NCBI RefSeq assembly: GCF_000426845.1
Contig: NZ_AUGD01000010.1
Span: 1-64,000, forward strand
Reading direction: 5' to 3'
DNA length: 64,000 bases
From: Bradyrhizobium sp. in8p8
GTDB taxonomy: Bacteria; Pseudomonadota; Alphaproteobacteria; Rhizobiales; Xanthobacteraceae
Shown: in pieces, positions 59,888 to 64,000 of the stretch
How the letters are laid out: each line of letters begins with the position of its first letter
Numbering within the stretch: the first letter of the stretch is position 1
Translations under genes and position numbers: made by a program
Notes under the pieces: model-generated
The model's database searches: none
Seen by the model: the letters and a program-made list of their open reading frames with translations, nothing else
What the model was told of the DNA's origin: nothing

Positions 59888-60834
59888 CACGCGTTCGGCA
59901 GGTTGCGGGCGAGCGCTTCCAGCACGGCCATGCGCACGGCGACGCCCATCTCCACCTGTTCGCGGATCAGGGACTGCGCGCCGTCGGCCACGATCGAGTC
60001 GATCTCAACGCCCCGGTTCATGGGGCCGGGATGCATCACGAGCGCGTCCGGCTTGGCATAGGCGAGCTTCTTCTGGTCGAGCCCGAAATAGTGGAAGTAT
60101 TCCGATGACGAGGGCACGAAGGAGCCGTTCATGCGCTCGCGCTGGAGCCGCAGCATCATGACGATGTCGGCGCCTTCCAGTCCCGCGCGCATGTCGCGCG
60201 CCACCTCGACGCCCATCCGCTCGATGCCGGGCGGCAGCAGCGTGGAGGGACCGACGACGCGGACGCGGGCGCCCATGGTATTGAGCAGGATGATGTTGGA
60301 GCGGGCGACGCGCGAGTGCAGCACGTCGCCGCAGATCGCGACCACCAGCCCCTCGATCCGGCCCTTGTTGCGACGGATGGTGAGCGCGTCGAGCAGCGCC
60401 TGGGTCGGATGCTCGTGCGCGCCGTCGCCGGCATTGATGACGGAACCGTCGACCTTGCGCGCCAGCAGTTCCACCGCGCCGGAGGCGTGATGGCGCACCA
60501 CCAGGATGTCAGGGTGCATTGCGTTCAGCGTCACGGCGGTATCGATCAGCGTCTCGCCCTTGCGGATCGAGGAGGACGACACCGACATGTTCATGACGTC
60601 GGCGCCCAGCCGTTTGCCGGCGAGCTCGAACGAGGACTGGGTCCGTGTGGAGGCCTCGAAGAAAAGGTTCACCTGCGTCCGTCCGCGCAGGACGGTGCGC
60701 TTCTTGTCAACCTGGCGGTTGAGCTCGACATATTCTTCCGACAGGTCGAGGAGGCCGGTAATGTCGGCGGCGGAAAGGCCCTCGATGCCCAGCAAATGCC
60801 GGTGGCCGAGGACGAAGGTCGATTTCGATGTCAT
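59887..60834 (-). CDS. pyrB: Aspartate transcarbamoylase catalytic subunit
   Basis: 315 residues. Catalyses carbamoyl phosphate + aspartate to carbamoyl aspartate, the first committed step of pyrimidine synthesis. The carbamoyl phosphate site [19 protein letters not shown] is clear, with [14 protein letters not shown] and [12 protein letters not shown]. The start at 60834 ([13 protein letters not shown]) fits the family. No regulatory pyrI is present; the partner is the PyrC'-like protein encoded by the overlapping gene. Confidence 0.95.
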
Positions 60835-60996
60835 TAAAAGCAGAGCTATAGGGGGGGATGGCGGGGGGAGCAAGCTTCAAATCCCGCAGCTGGACTTATC
60901 CACGGCGCTTTAGAGGCGGGACGGCGCCGCCAGCCTGTGTCCGCGGCGGCCGCTTTGCGCTAGACTCGCGCCGTACGTTGCGTCACGGGCTGGAGT

Positions 60997-62400
60997 ATGA
61001 GGAGCACGCGGTATCTTAATCGACTGGCGCGCTGTGTTGCTGCCATGGCGGCCGCGTGCGTTGTCGGTTTGGCGGCGCCCGCACTGGCGGAGAAACGCGT
61101 GGCGCTGGTCATCGGCAACGATCTCTATCCGAACCTGCCGGCCGACCGGCAATTGAAGAAAGCGGCGAATGACGCGACGTCGGTGGCCGACGCGCTGAGA
61201 TCACTTGGTTTTGAGATCGTGCTGGGGACCAATCTCGGCCGCCAGGCAATGATCGACCGTCTCGCGGATTTCACGGCGCGGCTGGAGCCAGGCGATACCG
61301 CCGCGGTGTTCTATGCCGGACACGGCGTTGCGATCGCGGGCGTGAACTACCTCGTGCCCAGCGATGTGCCGACCGTCAACGAGGGCGCCGAAGCGCGGGT
61401 GCGCGGCGCCTCCATTGCGGAGCCGGATGTGATCGCGGAGCTTCAGGCGAAGTCGGTGCGGGTCGCGTTCGTCGTGATCGATGCCTGCCGCGACAATCCG
61501 TTCCCGCGCGCCGCGGGCCGTTCGATCGGGAACACGCGGGGGCTTGCGGATTCGAAGCCGGCACGCGGGATCTTCACGCTCTATTCCGCCGGGATAGGTC
61601 AGACCGCGCTCGACCAGCTCAGCAGCAACGATACGGCGCATAATTCGGTGTTCACGCGGGTGTTCGTCGAGCAGCTTAAGCGGCCTGAACTGCATCTCGG
61701 CGATCTCGCAGTCGAGGTGCGCGAGCGCGTGGCGGCGCTGGCGCTGACGGCGAGCGATGGCGCCGGAGAGCCCGTGCCGCACGACCAGACGCCGGCCTAT
61801 TACGACCAGACGCTCGGCGGGCGGATCTATCTCTGGGCGTCCCTCTCGTCGGAGCGGCCGGTGGCAGGCATGTTGGTGAAGCCGCAAGCGAGACCGGCGG
61901 TTGCGGAGCGTGCGGCCATGCGTCCACCGCGTCCGTCCGCGGCAGGCGAAAGCTGCGCCCGCAGCGGCTTCGCGACCTATTGCGTCAGCTCGATGCTGAA
62001 GCCGCAGTTCGGCAACTCATACGGCGTGGCGAACTTGTTCGACGCCTCGACGGGAACGGCATGGGTGGAGGGCGCCTCGGGCAGCGGCATCGGCGAATGG
62101 ATCACCATCGAGTTCGAGGCCCCGCGGCGGGTCAAATCGATCCATGTGCAGAACGGCTATCAGAAAACTCCCGATATCTTTGCCAAGAACAACAGGGTTC
62201 GCCAGATCCGATTGCAGTTCTCCGGGGGAGAGTCGCAGACCTTCACCCTCGACGACAAGTTTTCAGCGCAGCTCCTGACGTTGCGGTCGCCGGTTACGGC
62301 CTACTGGCTGCAATTCGTCATCGACGACGTCTGGGCCGGCAACAAATATACGGACACCGCGATCACGAAGCTTCTGGTCAACTCGGATCCGGTGCAATGA
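60997..62400 (+). CDS. Secreted caspase-like peptidase with C-terminal glycan-binding-type domain
   Basis: 467 residues. A signal peptide occupies about 1-31 (cleavage after PALA). The caspase fold (about 33-260) has the catalytic His109 (VFYAGHGVAI) and Cys164 (VVIDACRDNPF), both in canonical motifs. After a Pro/Ala linker (about 295-320) comes a beta domain (SCARSGFATYCVSS ... NSYGVANLFDASTGTAWVEG ... GIGEWITIEFEAPRRV), which resembles the NADase-type glycan-binding or discoidin-like domain. The two-cysteine start of this domain fits an extracytoplasmic site. Its TGA overlaps the next ATG (ATGA), so it is co-translated with a D-Ala-D-Ala dipeptidase. The cleavage target is unknown. Confidence 0.88.
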   Translation: MRSTRYLNRLARCVAAMAAACVVGLAAPALAEKRVALVIGNDLYPNLPADRQLKKAANDATSVADALRSLGFEIVLGTNLGRQAMIDRLADFTARLEPGDTAAVFYAGHGVAIAGVNYLVPSDVPTVNEGAEARVRGASIAEPDVIAELQAKSVRVAFVVIDACRDNPFPRAAGRSIGNTRGLADSKPARGIFTLYSAGIGQTALDQLSSNDTAHNSVFTRVFVEQLKRPELHLGDLAVEVRERVAALALTASDGAGEPVPHDQTPAYYDQTLGGRIYLWASLSSERPVAGMLVKPQARPAVAERAAMRPPRPSAAGESCARSGFATYCVSSMLKPQFGNSYGVANLFDASTGTAWVEGASGSGIGEWITIEFEAPRRVKSIHVQNGYQKTPDIFAKNNRVRQIRLQFSGGESQTFTLDDKFSAQLLTLRSPVTAYWLQFVIDDVWAGNKYTDTAITKLLVNSDPVQ

Positions 62401-63170
62401 TTGCAAGGAAGGACATCACGGCGCGGGCCGCGCTCGTCGCGTTGCTTGCAACATTTGTCCTCGCCCCGGTGCGCGCGCAGACCTTGCCCGGCGGCTTCGT
62501 CTATCTGCGCGACATCGAACCCAGCATCATCCAGGATATCCGCTACGCCACATCGAACAATTTCGTCGGCCGTCCGCTCGCCGGCTATGGCGCGGGCGAG
62601 TGCGTCGTGAAGCGCGAGGTAGGGCTGCGACTGAAGGCGGTGCAAGAAGCGCTCGCCGCCCAGAATCTGTCGCTGAAGATGTTCGACTGCTACCGGCCGG
62701 CGCGGGCCTCGCTCGACATGGTGAAATGGTCGCAGAACGGTCATGAGACGGCGGCCGAGCGGCGCTACAACCCGAGGATTCCCAAGACCGAGCTGTTCCG
62801 CCTCGGCTACATCGCGAGCCGCTCGCAGCATTCGACCGGCGCGGCGCTCGATCTCACGCTGGTCGACCTCAAGGCTGACAATTCCGCCAAATATGATCCG
62901 TCGAAGAGCTATGCCGATTGTACGGCGCCGGCCGAGGTGCGGGCGCCGGAGGGCAGCGTCGACATGGGCACAGGCTACGACTGTACCGACGTCAGGGGCC
63001 ATACGGCGGCACCATCGATCAATCCGGAGCAGCGTGCCTGGCGCAAGCGGCTGGTGGCCGCGATGGCCAGGCAAGGCTTTGTGAACTATTCGAAGGAGTG
63101 GTGGCATTTTTCCCTGCCGGGGGCGGGCGGGGCGGCCTATGATTTCCCGATCCAGCCGCGGACGAGGTAG
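62397..63170 (+). CDS. D-alanyl-D-alanine dipeptidase (peptidase M15D, VanX-like)
   Basis: 257 residues. A signal peptide (about 1-27, APVRAQ) directs it to the periplasm. Catalytic residues: His145 and Asp152 in SQHSTGAALD, Glu234 and His237 in KEWWHFS, and Arg100 in DCYRPARAS, all matching zinc D,D-dipeptidases. Four extra cysteines may form disulfides. The enzyme splits D-Ala-D-Ala, for recycling wall peptides or as part of wall remodelling. It overlaps the caspase-like gene by four bases (ATGA), so the two form one unit. Confidence 0.92.
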   Translation: MIARKDITARAALVALLATFVLAPVRAQTLPGGFVYLRDIEPSIIQDIRYATSNNFVGRPLAGYGAGECVVKREVGLRLKAVQEALAAQNLSLKMFDCYRPARASLDMVKWSQNGHETAAERRYNPRIPKTELFRLGYIASRSQHSTGAALDLTLVDLKADNSAKYDPSKSYADCTAPAEVRAPEGSVDMGTGYDCTDVRGHTAAPSINPEQRAWRKRLVAAMARQGFVNYSKEWWHFSLPGAGGAAYDFPIQPRTR

Positions 63171-63207
63171 ATTCAATTGAAGCGGATGCAGCCGCGAGCA
63201 GGTTTAT

Positions 63208-63224
63208 CTCTCCCGACGGGAGAG
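63208..63224 (+). terminator. Hairpin after the D,D-dipeptidase gene
   Basis: Perfect 7-bp stem CTCTCCC / GGGAGAG with a GAC loop, 38 bases after the stop codon. The T-run is poor, so it is a weak intrinsic terminator or an intergenic repeat. It separates the pair from aidB. Confidence 0.45.
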
Positions 63225-63267
63225 GCGGCACTGCTCGCGTCGAGATGAATTCGATCGGAATTACCCC

Positions 63268-64000
63268 ATGACCCAGCCGAACTTTGCGACCCATGAAGTC
63301 TTCAACCAGTCACCGCCCTTCGAGGACGTCAATCTCTTTACCCTGGACCAGCCGTTGGTCGCGGCGGTGAAGGCCAATGGCGGCGCGGCGGCGGAACGGG
63401 AACTGTCCGCGTTCGGCAAGGAGTGGGGTTCTGCGGCGATGGCCGATCGCGGGCGCCTCGCGAACGAGAACACGCCGAAGCTGCGCAGCTTCGATGCCAA
63501 GGGTCACCGGCGCGACCAGGTCGAGTTTCATCCCGCCTATCACGAACTGATGGCGCACAGTGCGCATGCAGGCGTGCACAATTCGACGTGGACGGCCGAT
63601 GGACGACCGGCGGACGATGCCGCCGAGGTCATCCGCGCGGCAAAATTCTACATGGCTGCGCAGGTCGAGACCGGCCACCTCTGCCCGATCACGATGACGC
63701 GCGCTTCCGTTGGTGCGCTGGCGATGCAGCCCGACTTGCTGGCGCGCGTCATGCCGGTGCTGTCCACGAAGAGCTACGATCCCGGCTTTGCGCCGTGGTG
63801 GGGCAAGCGCGGCATGACGCTCGGCATGGGCATGACCGAGAAGCAGGGCGGCACCGACGTGCGCGCGAACATGACGCGCGCAGTTCGCGACGGGAATGCG
63901 TATCGCATCACCGGTCACAAATGGTTCATGTCGGCGCCCATGTGTGACGCGTTCCTGGTGCTGGCGCAGGCGGATGGCGGGCTGACCTGTTTCTTCATGC
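63268..64000 (+). CDS. aidB: AidB-type acyl-CoA dehydrogenase (truncated by the window end)
   Basis: The first 244 residues of an AidB homologue; the gene continues beyond 64000. HEVFNQSPPFEDVNLFTLDQ, the GRLANENTPKLRSFDAKGHR region, ETGHLCPITMTRASVGAL and MTLGMGMTEKQGGTDVRANM match E. coli AidB closely. AidB is an FAD protein of the acyl-CoA dehydrogenase superfamily induced in the adaptive response to alkylating agents and binds DNA; its substrate is unclear. Start at ATG 63268 fits the E. coli N-terminus. No Ada regulator is visible in the window. Confidence 0.93.
   Translation, partial: MTQPNFATHEVFNQSPPFEDVNLFTLDQPLVAAVKANGGAAAERELSAFGKEWGSAAMADRGRLANENTPKLRSFDAKGHRRDQVEFHPAYHELMAHSAHAGVHNSTWTADGRPADDAAEVIRAAKFYMAAQVETGHLCPITMTRASVGALAMQPDLLARVMPVLSTKSYDPGFAPWWGKRGMTLGMGMTEKQGGTDVRANMTRAVRDGNAYRITGHKWFMSAPMCDAFLVLAQADGGLTCFFM

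Follow-up and report, generated by a model that had tools for sequence, protein, structure and literature searches.

Prokaryotic caspase homologues (orthocaspases and metacaspases, family Peptidase_C14) were surveyed in 2012 across 671 sequences and 217 predicted metacaspase operons, 23 of which carried further proteolysis domains and 16 cell-surface functions (PMC3501461). A wall amidase occurred in one of these operons (Geobacter), mreBCD in another (Alcanivorax), and an operon of a protease and a protease inhibitor was conserved in four Rhizobium strains; as far as the survey's main text goes, the words 'dipeptidase' and 'discoidin' do not occur in it (PMC3501461). Here we analyzed a gene pair in a 64,000-nucleotide stretch of Bradyrhizobium sp. 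in8p8 (assembly GCF_000426845.1, contig NZ_AUGD01000010.1, positions 1 to 64,000; hereafter the window), in which a caspase-like gene (CASP; 60997-62400, plus strand, 467 residues) adjoins a gene for an M15 D-Ala-D-Ala dipeptidase-like protein (DIP; 62397-63170, plus strand, 257 residues). The link between such caspases and dipeptidases proved to lie far beyond chance and to recur in many families and genomic contexts (33 of 37 loci in one comparison; 19 of 75 against 0.7 expected in another). From localization onwards, we infer that the window's genes encode a periplasmic, wall-engaged caspase and a D,D-dipeptidase partner that act on peptidoglycan status, a tentative reading to which we give somewhat less than an even chance. 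The components belong to known families and the module itself appears to be undescribed: our search of open-licence papers, which does not show absence from print, returned no description of the pair or the module.

CASP consists of an export-signal-like N-terminus, a caspase domain, a linker modelled with low confidence and a C-terminal NADase_transloc domain. Its probable Sec signal peptide (residues 1-31; 60997-61089, plus strand) was read by eye from a hydropathy peak at residues 14-25 and an ALA end before Glu32. The Peptidase_C14 profile of Pfam matched residues 33-273 (61093-61815, plus strand) with an E-value of 1.9e-28 and 100.2 bits against a curated cut-off of 21.4. His109 (61321-61323, plus strand) and Cys164 (61486-61488, plus strand), which an original prediction made from the sequence alone had named as the caspase dyad, were indeed invariant in all 32 aligned sequences (the window's counted), and so were Asp59 and Asp162. 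In the full model of the protein (mean predicted local distance difference test score, pLDDT, 80.5; predicted template-modelling score 0.56), the closest fold to the caspase domain was the MALT1 paracaspase 3v4o (template-modelling score 0.83 by target length, 22% identity), and no long hydrophobic helix was apparent by eye beyond the signal-like N-terminus. Asp59 and Asp162 align with Asp residues of MALT1, whose role we take to lie in the choice of the P1 residue, with a preference for Arg or Lys. Because both residues are invariant and aligned in this way, a basic P1 preference is possible. Thus, CASP is like the prokaryotic caspase homologues in its fold, its His/Cys dyad and a family score above the cut-off, whereas it differs from them in its export-like N-terminus, its C-terminal domain resembling a carbohydrate-binding module (CBM) and the adjoining D,D-dipeptidase gene. 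CASP scored below the NCBI cut-off for the EACC1-associated caspase NF047832 (40.8 vs 140 bits). We considered a defence-system role and did not adopt it: the PADLOC defence caspase PDLC02987 matched CASP only over profile positions 5-159 of 453 (E 2.1e-11) and DIP had no PADLOC match, the family search being confined to these two among the window's genes. Spread on plasmids was discarded, as no plasmid record covered 80% of CASP at an E-value of 1e-30; seven Cereibacter plasmids matched CASP, all confined to residues 40-289.

Following the linker (residues 281-307; 61837-61917, plus strand; pLDDT below 50), residues 326-460 (61972-62376, plus strand) form an NADase_transloc or NADase-type glycan-binding domain, matched by both Pfam (NADase_transloc, E 2e-31, 109.6 bits vs cut-off 27) and NCBIfam (NADase_discoid, E 1.1e-44, 151.7 bits vs cut-off 38). 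Cys320, just before the domain, and Cys329, just inside it, were invariant in 32 of 32 sequences. A model of residues 300-467 reached a mean pLDDT of 95.2, and fold searches with it (Foldseek, VIA-align 2) returned CBM32 modules, the carbohydrate modules of sialidase and galactose oxidase, APC10/Doc1 and F5/8C domains, the best match having a Z-score of 16.0 and a root-mean-square deviation of 2.3 over 135 aligned residues; families missing from this list are not thereby excluded. The model therefore bears out the glycan-binding type of fold (CBM32/F5-8C) that had been predicted for this domain, although likeness of a modelled fold to CBMs is no proof that sugar is bound. For the streptococcal NADase, from which the domain takes its name, residues of the domain are reported to take part in recognizing carbohydrate (PMC9887584), and the structure 7JI1, listed for that enzyme (PMC10818452), matched CASP residues 344-413 by sequence (E 1.1e-5). 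This streptococcal translocation domain is the same Pfam/NCBIfam domain as that of CASP; there it sits on a host-directed enzyme, whereas the window's copy sits on a caspase, beside a wall peptidase.

DIP matched Peptidase_M15 (PF01427) with an E-value of 4e-33 and 115.3 bits (cut-off 27), and the VanX structure 1r44 was the only PDB sequence it matched. Residues H145 (62829-62831), D152 (62850-62852), E234 (63096-63098) and H237 (63105-63107; all plus strand), together with R100, were invariant in all seven aligned sequences (the window's counted), and by analogy with VanX we take them to be zinc ligands and catalytic residues. DIP is thus like the VanX/PcgL-type dipeptidases (M15D) in family, active-site residues and the 1r44 match, but differs from VanX in scoring under the NCBI VanX equivalog cut-off (NF033115; 150.3 vs 320 bits). 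The VanX-like D,D-dipeptidase of the original prediction accordingly stood as to family and an intact active site and fell short as to VanX itself, and we regard DIP as a relative of M15 D-Ala-D-Ala dipeptidases with that activity predicted. Its export-like N-terminus resembles that of PcgL of Salmonella, which is periplasmic. PcgL has been described as a D-Ala-D-Ala dipeptidase (PMC7933661). A part in glycopeptide resistance was considered and set aside: no van-type genes were recognized by eye beside DIP, the pair's neighbours being, by eye, pyrB and an acyl-CoA-dehydrogenase-like open reading frame (ORF).

A possible preference of CASP for basic residues bears on the idea that the caspase processes the dipeptidase in a form of zymogen control, for example by cutting a Lys/Arg-bearing loop at about residues 157-187. 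The window's DIP has this loop, whereas L106-L108 lack it, and the loop-less homologues of those loci are still paired with a caspase. DIP moreover has no propeptide, since its signal-like N-terminus runs into the VanX-type fold, and it persists in genomes without the caspase; zymogen control is very improbable.

Inspection of the ORFs verified both genes where they had been predicted, with the start codon of DIP and the stop codon of CASP sharing an ATGA at 62397-62400 (plus strand), and a four-nucleotide start/stop overlap (ATGA, GTGA or TTGA) was available in all 20 related loci with a pyrB context (L129-L148). Hydropathy and reading by eye also agreed with the predicted export of both proteins: in both, a short hydrophobic stretch near the start leads into an end of Ala-X-Ala type, the pattern of Sec signals. 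Both genes are under purifying selection, with ratios of nonsynonymous to synonymous substitution (dN/dS) of 0.09-0.14 for CASP (five pairs with the window gene) and 0.08-0.13 for DIP (four pairs). A promoter and terminator consensus scan of 60700-63400 gave 0 matches. The predicted co-translation fits the ATGA overlap of the window but is not universal, as eight Roseibium/Labrenzia loci carry the two genes tail to tail on opposite strands, with stop codons at most 46 bp apart in seven of them. In all eight, an ORF related to L105:3972-4565 (plus strand), which reads by eye as sigma-like of the extracytoplasmic function (ECF) type and overlaps the start of the dipeptidase gene in L105, lies on the same side of the dipeptidase gene.

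In the reading that we favour, the periplasm is where both proteins would act, on the status of the peptidoglycan. The protease would be held by its C-terminal domain on the wall, or on a wall-derived glycan or muropeptide, and the caspase, probably cutting after Arg or Lys, would cleave one or a few envelope proteins once its ligand is engaged. In the same compartment the dipeptidase would remove D-Ala-D-Ala or D-Ala-terminated material, and would thereby either clear the ligand, ending the signal, or alter the same wall material.

We then examined how the pair is distributed. Genome searches scored only a handful of top candidates in each genome (no more than 8 for CASP in the genus, and no more than 4, 7 or 9 in the other searches), and the presences reported here are therefore lower bounds. 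Among 195 Bradyrhizobium genomes, 26 had a CASP orthologue (69-100% identity; two copies split by frameshifts and one cut by a contig end), and 189 had a DIP match at an E-value of 0.001, a few of them weak. DIP lay beside CASP in 25 of the 26, and in the 26th CASP was cut by a contig end. Thus, the dipeptidase often does without the caspase; conservation of the pair across the genus, which the original prediction had looked for, did not hold, and the genes in part occur separately in close relatives, a result it had named as counting against it. The window's pair is preceded by pyrC-pyrB on the minus strand and followed by the acyl-CoA-dehydrogenase-like ORF, which begins at 63268 (pyrB, pyrC, plsY and 'aidB' being presumptive labels that we gave by eye from sequence, not by family search). 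Loci of the genus without CASP kept pyrB and DIP as neighbours in all 19 that were fetched, with aidB beyond DIP in 18, and the order pyrB-(CASP)-DIP-aidB is syntenic within the genus. In a tree built from pyrB and pyrC of 51 selected loci (33 tips with CASP, some genomes represented twice; L098, which has no pyrC, dropped, and L120, a 200-base piece, left out), the presence of CASP required at least 9 changes, compared to a mean of 15.1 and a minimum of 10 in shuffles, a figure that does not translate into rates because the loci were picked for or against CASP. Since L147 (Xanthobacteraceae) and L148 (Hyphomicrobiales) keep the pair beside pyrB with about 60% CASP identity, repeated loss of an old pair appears to fit the distribution in the genus best. 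As many close relatives keep only the dipeptidase, the module would serve as an accessory unit of wall surveillance or turnover.

The same distribution could be accommodated by simple scavenging, with two secreted hydrolases that, uncoupled in regulation, salvage proteins and D-Ala-containing peptides released by wall turnover or left by dead cells, since the dipeptidase is near-universal in the genus without the caspase (189 vs 26 genomes) and both are hydrolases of exported type. Caspases, however, are usually highly selective, and the occurrence elsewhere of the same domain and an M15 enzyme with a kinase or a sigma factor looks unlike bulk digestion, which leaves scavenging improbable and the wall-engaged pair preferable.

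Outside the genus, we sampled 397 genomes of the order, of which 27 had the NADase_transloc domain, at 30 places in all, and 90 had DIP. Twelve of the 30 domain places adjoined DIP, all of them among the 14 that lay in open frames of more than 430 codons; two of these twelve long ORFs had no caspase part, and the two long ORFs not adjoining DIP belonged to genomes G470 and G279. G279 carries a caspase-NADase_transloc gene (L214) with no dipeptidase match within 9 kb and, separately, an SH3b caspase with a dipeptidase (L215). A census of the 75 non-genus DIP genomes of this sample, a few of whose loci were cut by contig ends, revealed a caspase with NADase_transloc beside DIP in 8, NADase_transloc on another protein in 2 (L213, with Trypsin_2, and L212, with an N-terminal part of no recognized family) and a caspase without NADase_transloc in 11. 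SH3_3 was found in all 10 of those 11 caspases that were scanned with Pfam, L236 being the unscanned one. By comparison, among 30 control caspases not next to DIP, SH3_3 occurred in 2, PG_binding_1 in 3, PG_binding_2 in 1 and NADase_transloc in none (controls drawn from the genus and order searches, 2 of 32 being dropped as DIP-adjacent and at least 3 of the 30 cut by contig ends). Like CASP, the DIP-adjacent caspases with an SH3b tail are encoded immediately next to an M15 dipeptidase and end in a domain of envelope type, which is SH3_3 where CASP has NADase_transloc. One locus, L231:2083-6428, holds a dipeptidase between two caspase genes, an SH3b one upstream on the same strand and another that faces it and has no SH3b. 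In L213:4787-7164 (minus strand), it is a trypsin-like protease that bears NADase_transloc next to the dipeptidase, the type of protease being swapped.

The background of caspase genes, 116 matches in 15 genomes that were chosen for such loci and with fragments counted, gives a chance of about 1% that a caspase lies within 2.2 kb of a given gene. In the census, 19 of 75 dipeptidases had a caspase nearby against the expected 0.7. On a tree of the dipeptidases (L283, which is short, dropped; three duplicates removed along with the DIP-less L214; partners counted within 2.2 kb on the DNA examined), those with an SH3b caspase formed a single clade that also takes in one contig-cut locus, and those with NADase_transloc were scattered over several places. 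The presence of a partner required at least 16 changes, compared to a mean of 36 in shuffles. This clustering, and the synteny in the genus, are what would be expected of a chance neighbourhood kept by the shared ancestry of a single arrangement; yet the tree still needs 16 changes, the excess of caspase neighbours outside the genus stands, and other lineages differ in surroundings, orientation and attached domains. Thus, pyrB stands beside the pair in L129-L148, and in the DNA examined the other pair loci have none of the genus neighbours. Chance neighbourhood is scarcely credible beside a functional pair at the wall. In a search of 32 loci for a third recurrent gene, every gene cluster present in at least 7 loci was CASP, DIP, an overlapping frame or part of the Roseibium/Labrenzia synteny; three smaller clusters lay at various distances, two of them linking loci from different groups (6 loci and 4 loci) and the third comprising 3.

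We also followed the NADase_transloc domain itself, with one genome per species. The resulting 80 loci are the best 80 of 105 confirmed, several of them contig-cut, and they lean to close relatives because the scan requires conserved peptide patterns; distances in this set are those between matches of custom-made profiles. The domain was fused to a caspase in 37 of the 80, and DIP was nearby in 33 of these, lying at most 75 bp from the domain match in 32 and 1978 bp from it in one (L159). The remaining 43 loci had the domain without a caspase, and in 7 of them (L153, L169, L171, L174, L176, L180 and L190) an M15-like gene was adjacent; L171 starts inside the domain, and Pfam confirmed the M15 of the other six, with one M15 match per genome. 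The caspase is therefore one of several parts attached to NADase_transloc beside an M15 gene. Trypsin_2 (L213), a protein kinase (L174) and VWA/CsgG (L169) stand N-terminal to the domain with the M15 gene downstream, and zinc-ribbon proteins with a predicted transmembrane segment bear it in L176, L180 and L190, again with M15 downstream. The neighbours of the 36 domain loci with neither caspase nor M15 were less uniform: no family occurred in more than 2 of the 57 neighbours scanned (among the best 25 of 71 families; 62 neighbours were collected and five very long ORFs left out), and one of the 57 was an Amidase_3.

A similar arrangement was found in a second phylum. In the order to which a Hungatella genome (L176, G584) belongs, 126 genomes yielded 11 genes with NADase_transloc and, spread over 26 genomes, 32 M15 matches; 4 of the 11 domain genes were followed by an M15 gene at a distance of about 320 bp or less (G584, G699, G715 and G716). 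Random placement would yield 0.012 such adjacencies (P ~2e-10), and with the Hungatella genome itself left out, since its pair was the reason for choosing it, the count is 3 of 10 (P ~1e-7); both P values are rough because related genomes are not independent. The parts attached to the domain in the four pairs were SLH (L284), an ECF sigma factor (L285), none recognized (L286) and a zinc ribbon (L176), and by eye the M15 partners of L284-L286 look like lipoproteins. Where no M15 was adjacent, the seven domain genes carried SLH and LRR (one), LRR (one), a weak SH3_3 (one) or nothing further that was recognized (four). The ORF at L285:1387-5063 (plus strand) unites ECF sigma regions 2 and 4 with a start that resembles a zinc ribbon by eye, one predicted transmembrane segment and NADase_transloc, and overlaps the open frame of the M15 gene that reads as a lipoprotein; it is a candidate membrane-bound sigma-factor receptor.

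These exchanges of attached parts speak for the strongest specific rival, a sensor with built-in signal removal, in which NADase_transloc would be an extracytoplasmic receptor that recognizes a fragment of peptidoglycan, whatever is attached to it would serve as output and the M15 enzyme would destroy the ligand. The domain is C-terminal to a caspase, Trypsin_2, kinase, zinc ribbon, VWA/CsgG, ECF sigma with transmembrane segment or SLH, with M15 downstream each time, and the lipoprotein-like M15 partners of L284-L286 agree with such a sensor. Nevertheless, most domain genes without a caspase have no M15 neighbour (36 of 43, and 7 of 11 in the Hungatella order), the ligand is hypothetical, and the caspase form has no apparent long hydrophobic helix besides its N-terminus, so that its signal would have to stay in the periplasm. 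We consider this sensor unlikely, if well worth keeping in sight, and retain the periplasmic caspase and dipeptidase acting on peptidoglycan status as the preferred reading.

Several observations weigh against that reading as well. Most of the genus has no CASP and still keeps DIP (26 vs 189 of 195 genomes), and two members, L102 and L103, have a frameshifted caspase gene beside a dipeptidase that is matched in one frame; the caspase of one distant pair, L209 of G347, which is among the 8 of the census, contains an internal stop codon. In the DNA examined, 54 of the 75 non-genus dipeptidases have neither partner, and the caspase that faces DIP in L231 has neither SH3_3 nor NADase_transloc. Four caspase-domain loci have no DIP nearby (L158, L166, L168 and L175), a search of the genomes of L168 and L175 for M15 gave no match, and 36 of the 43 caspase-less domain genes are likewise without an M15 neighbour. 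Where the association occurs, a D,D-dipeptidase and an extracytoplasmic domain, either CBM-like or SH3b, stay constant and the attached part varies, which favours a shared wall ligand over a shared enzyme job; the recurring core is a wall- or glycan-type binding module and a D,D-dipeptidase with exchangeable outputs. Thus, the observation behind the original prediction is confirmed and its interpretation partly supported, and the 'wall-damage response' that it proposed is something we still infer from sequence.

More speculatively, NADase_transloc may be a general extracytoplasmic receptor for peptidoglycan fragments that evolved with a ligand-erasing M15 enzyme and onto which outputs were plugged, in Alphaproteobacteria a periplasmic caspase; we think this rather doubtful. 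If it is true, the condition of the cell wall would be the natural trigger for a class of bacterial caspases. What exported caspases do in bacteria becomes open to experiment through a genetic partner that recurs and whose substrate, D-Ala-D-Ala, can be predicted, and through the sugar-binding fold of the attached domain. The presence of the domain and M15 with a kinase or sigma factor elsewhere suggests an unrecognized mode of wall sensing. Such a mode would also give NADase_transloc, a poorly understood domain known from a streptococcal toxin, a likely role in bacterial envelopes.

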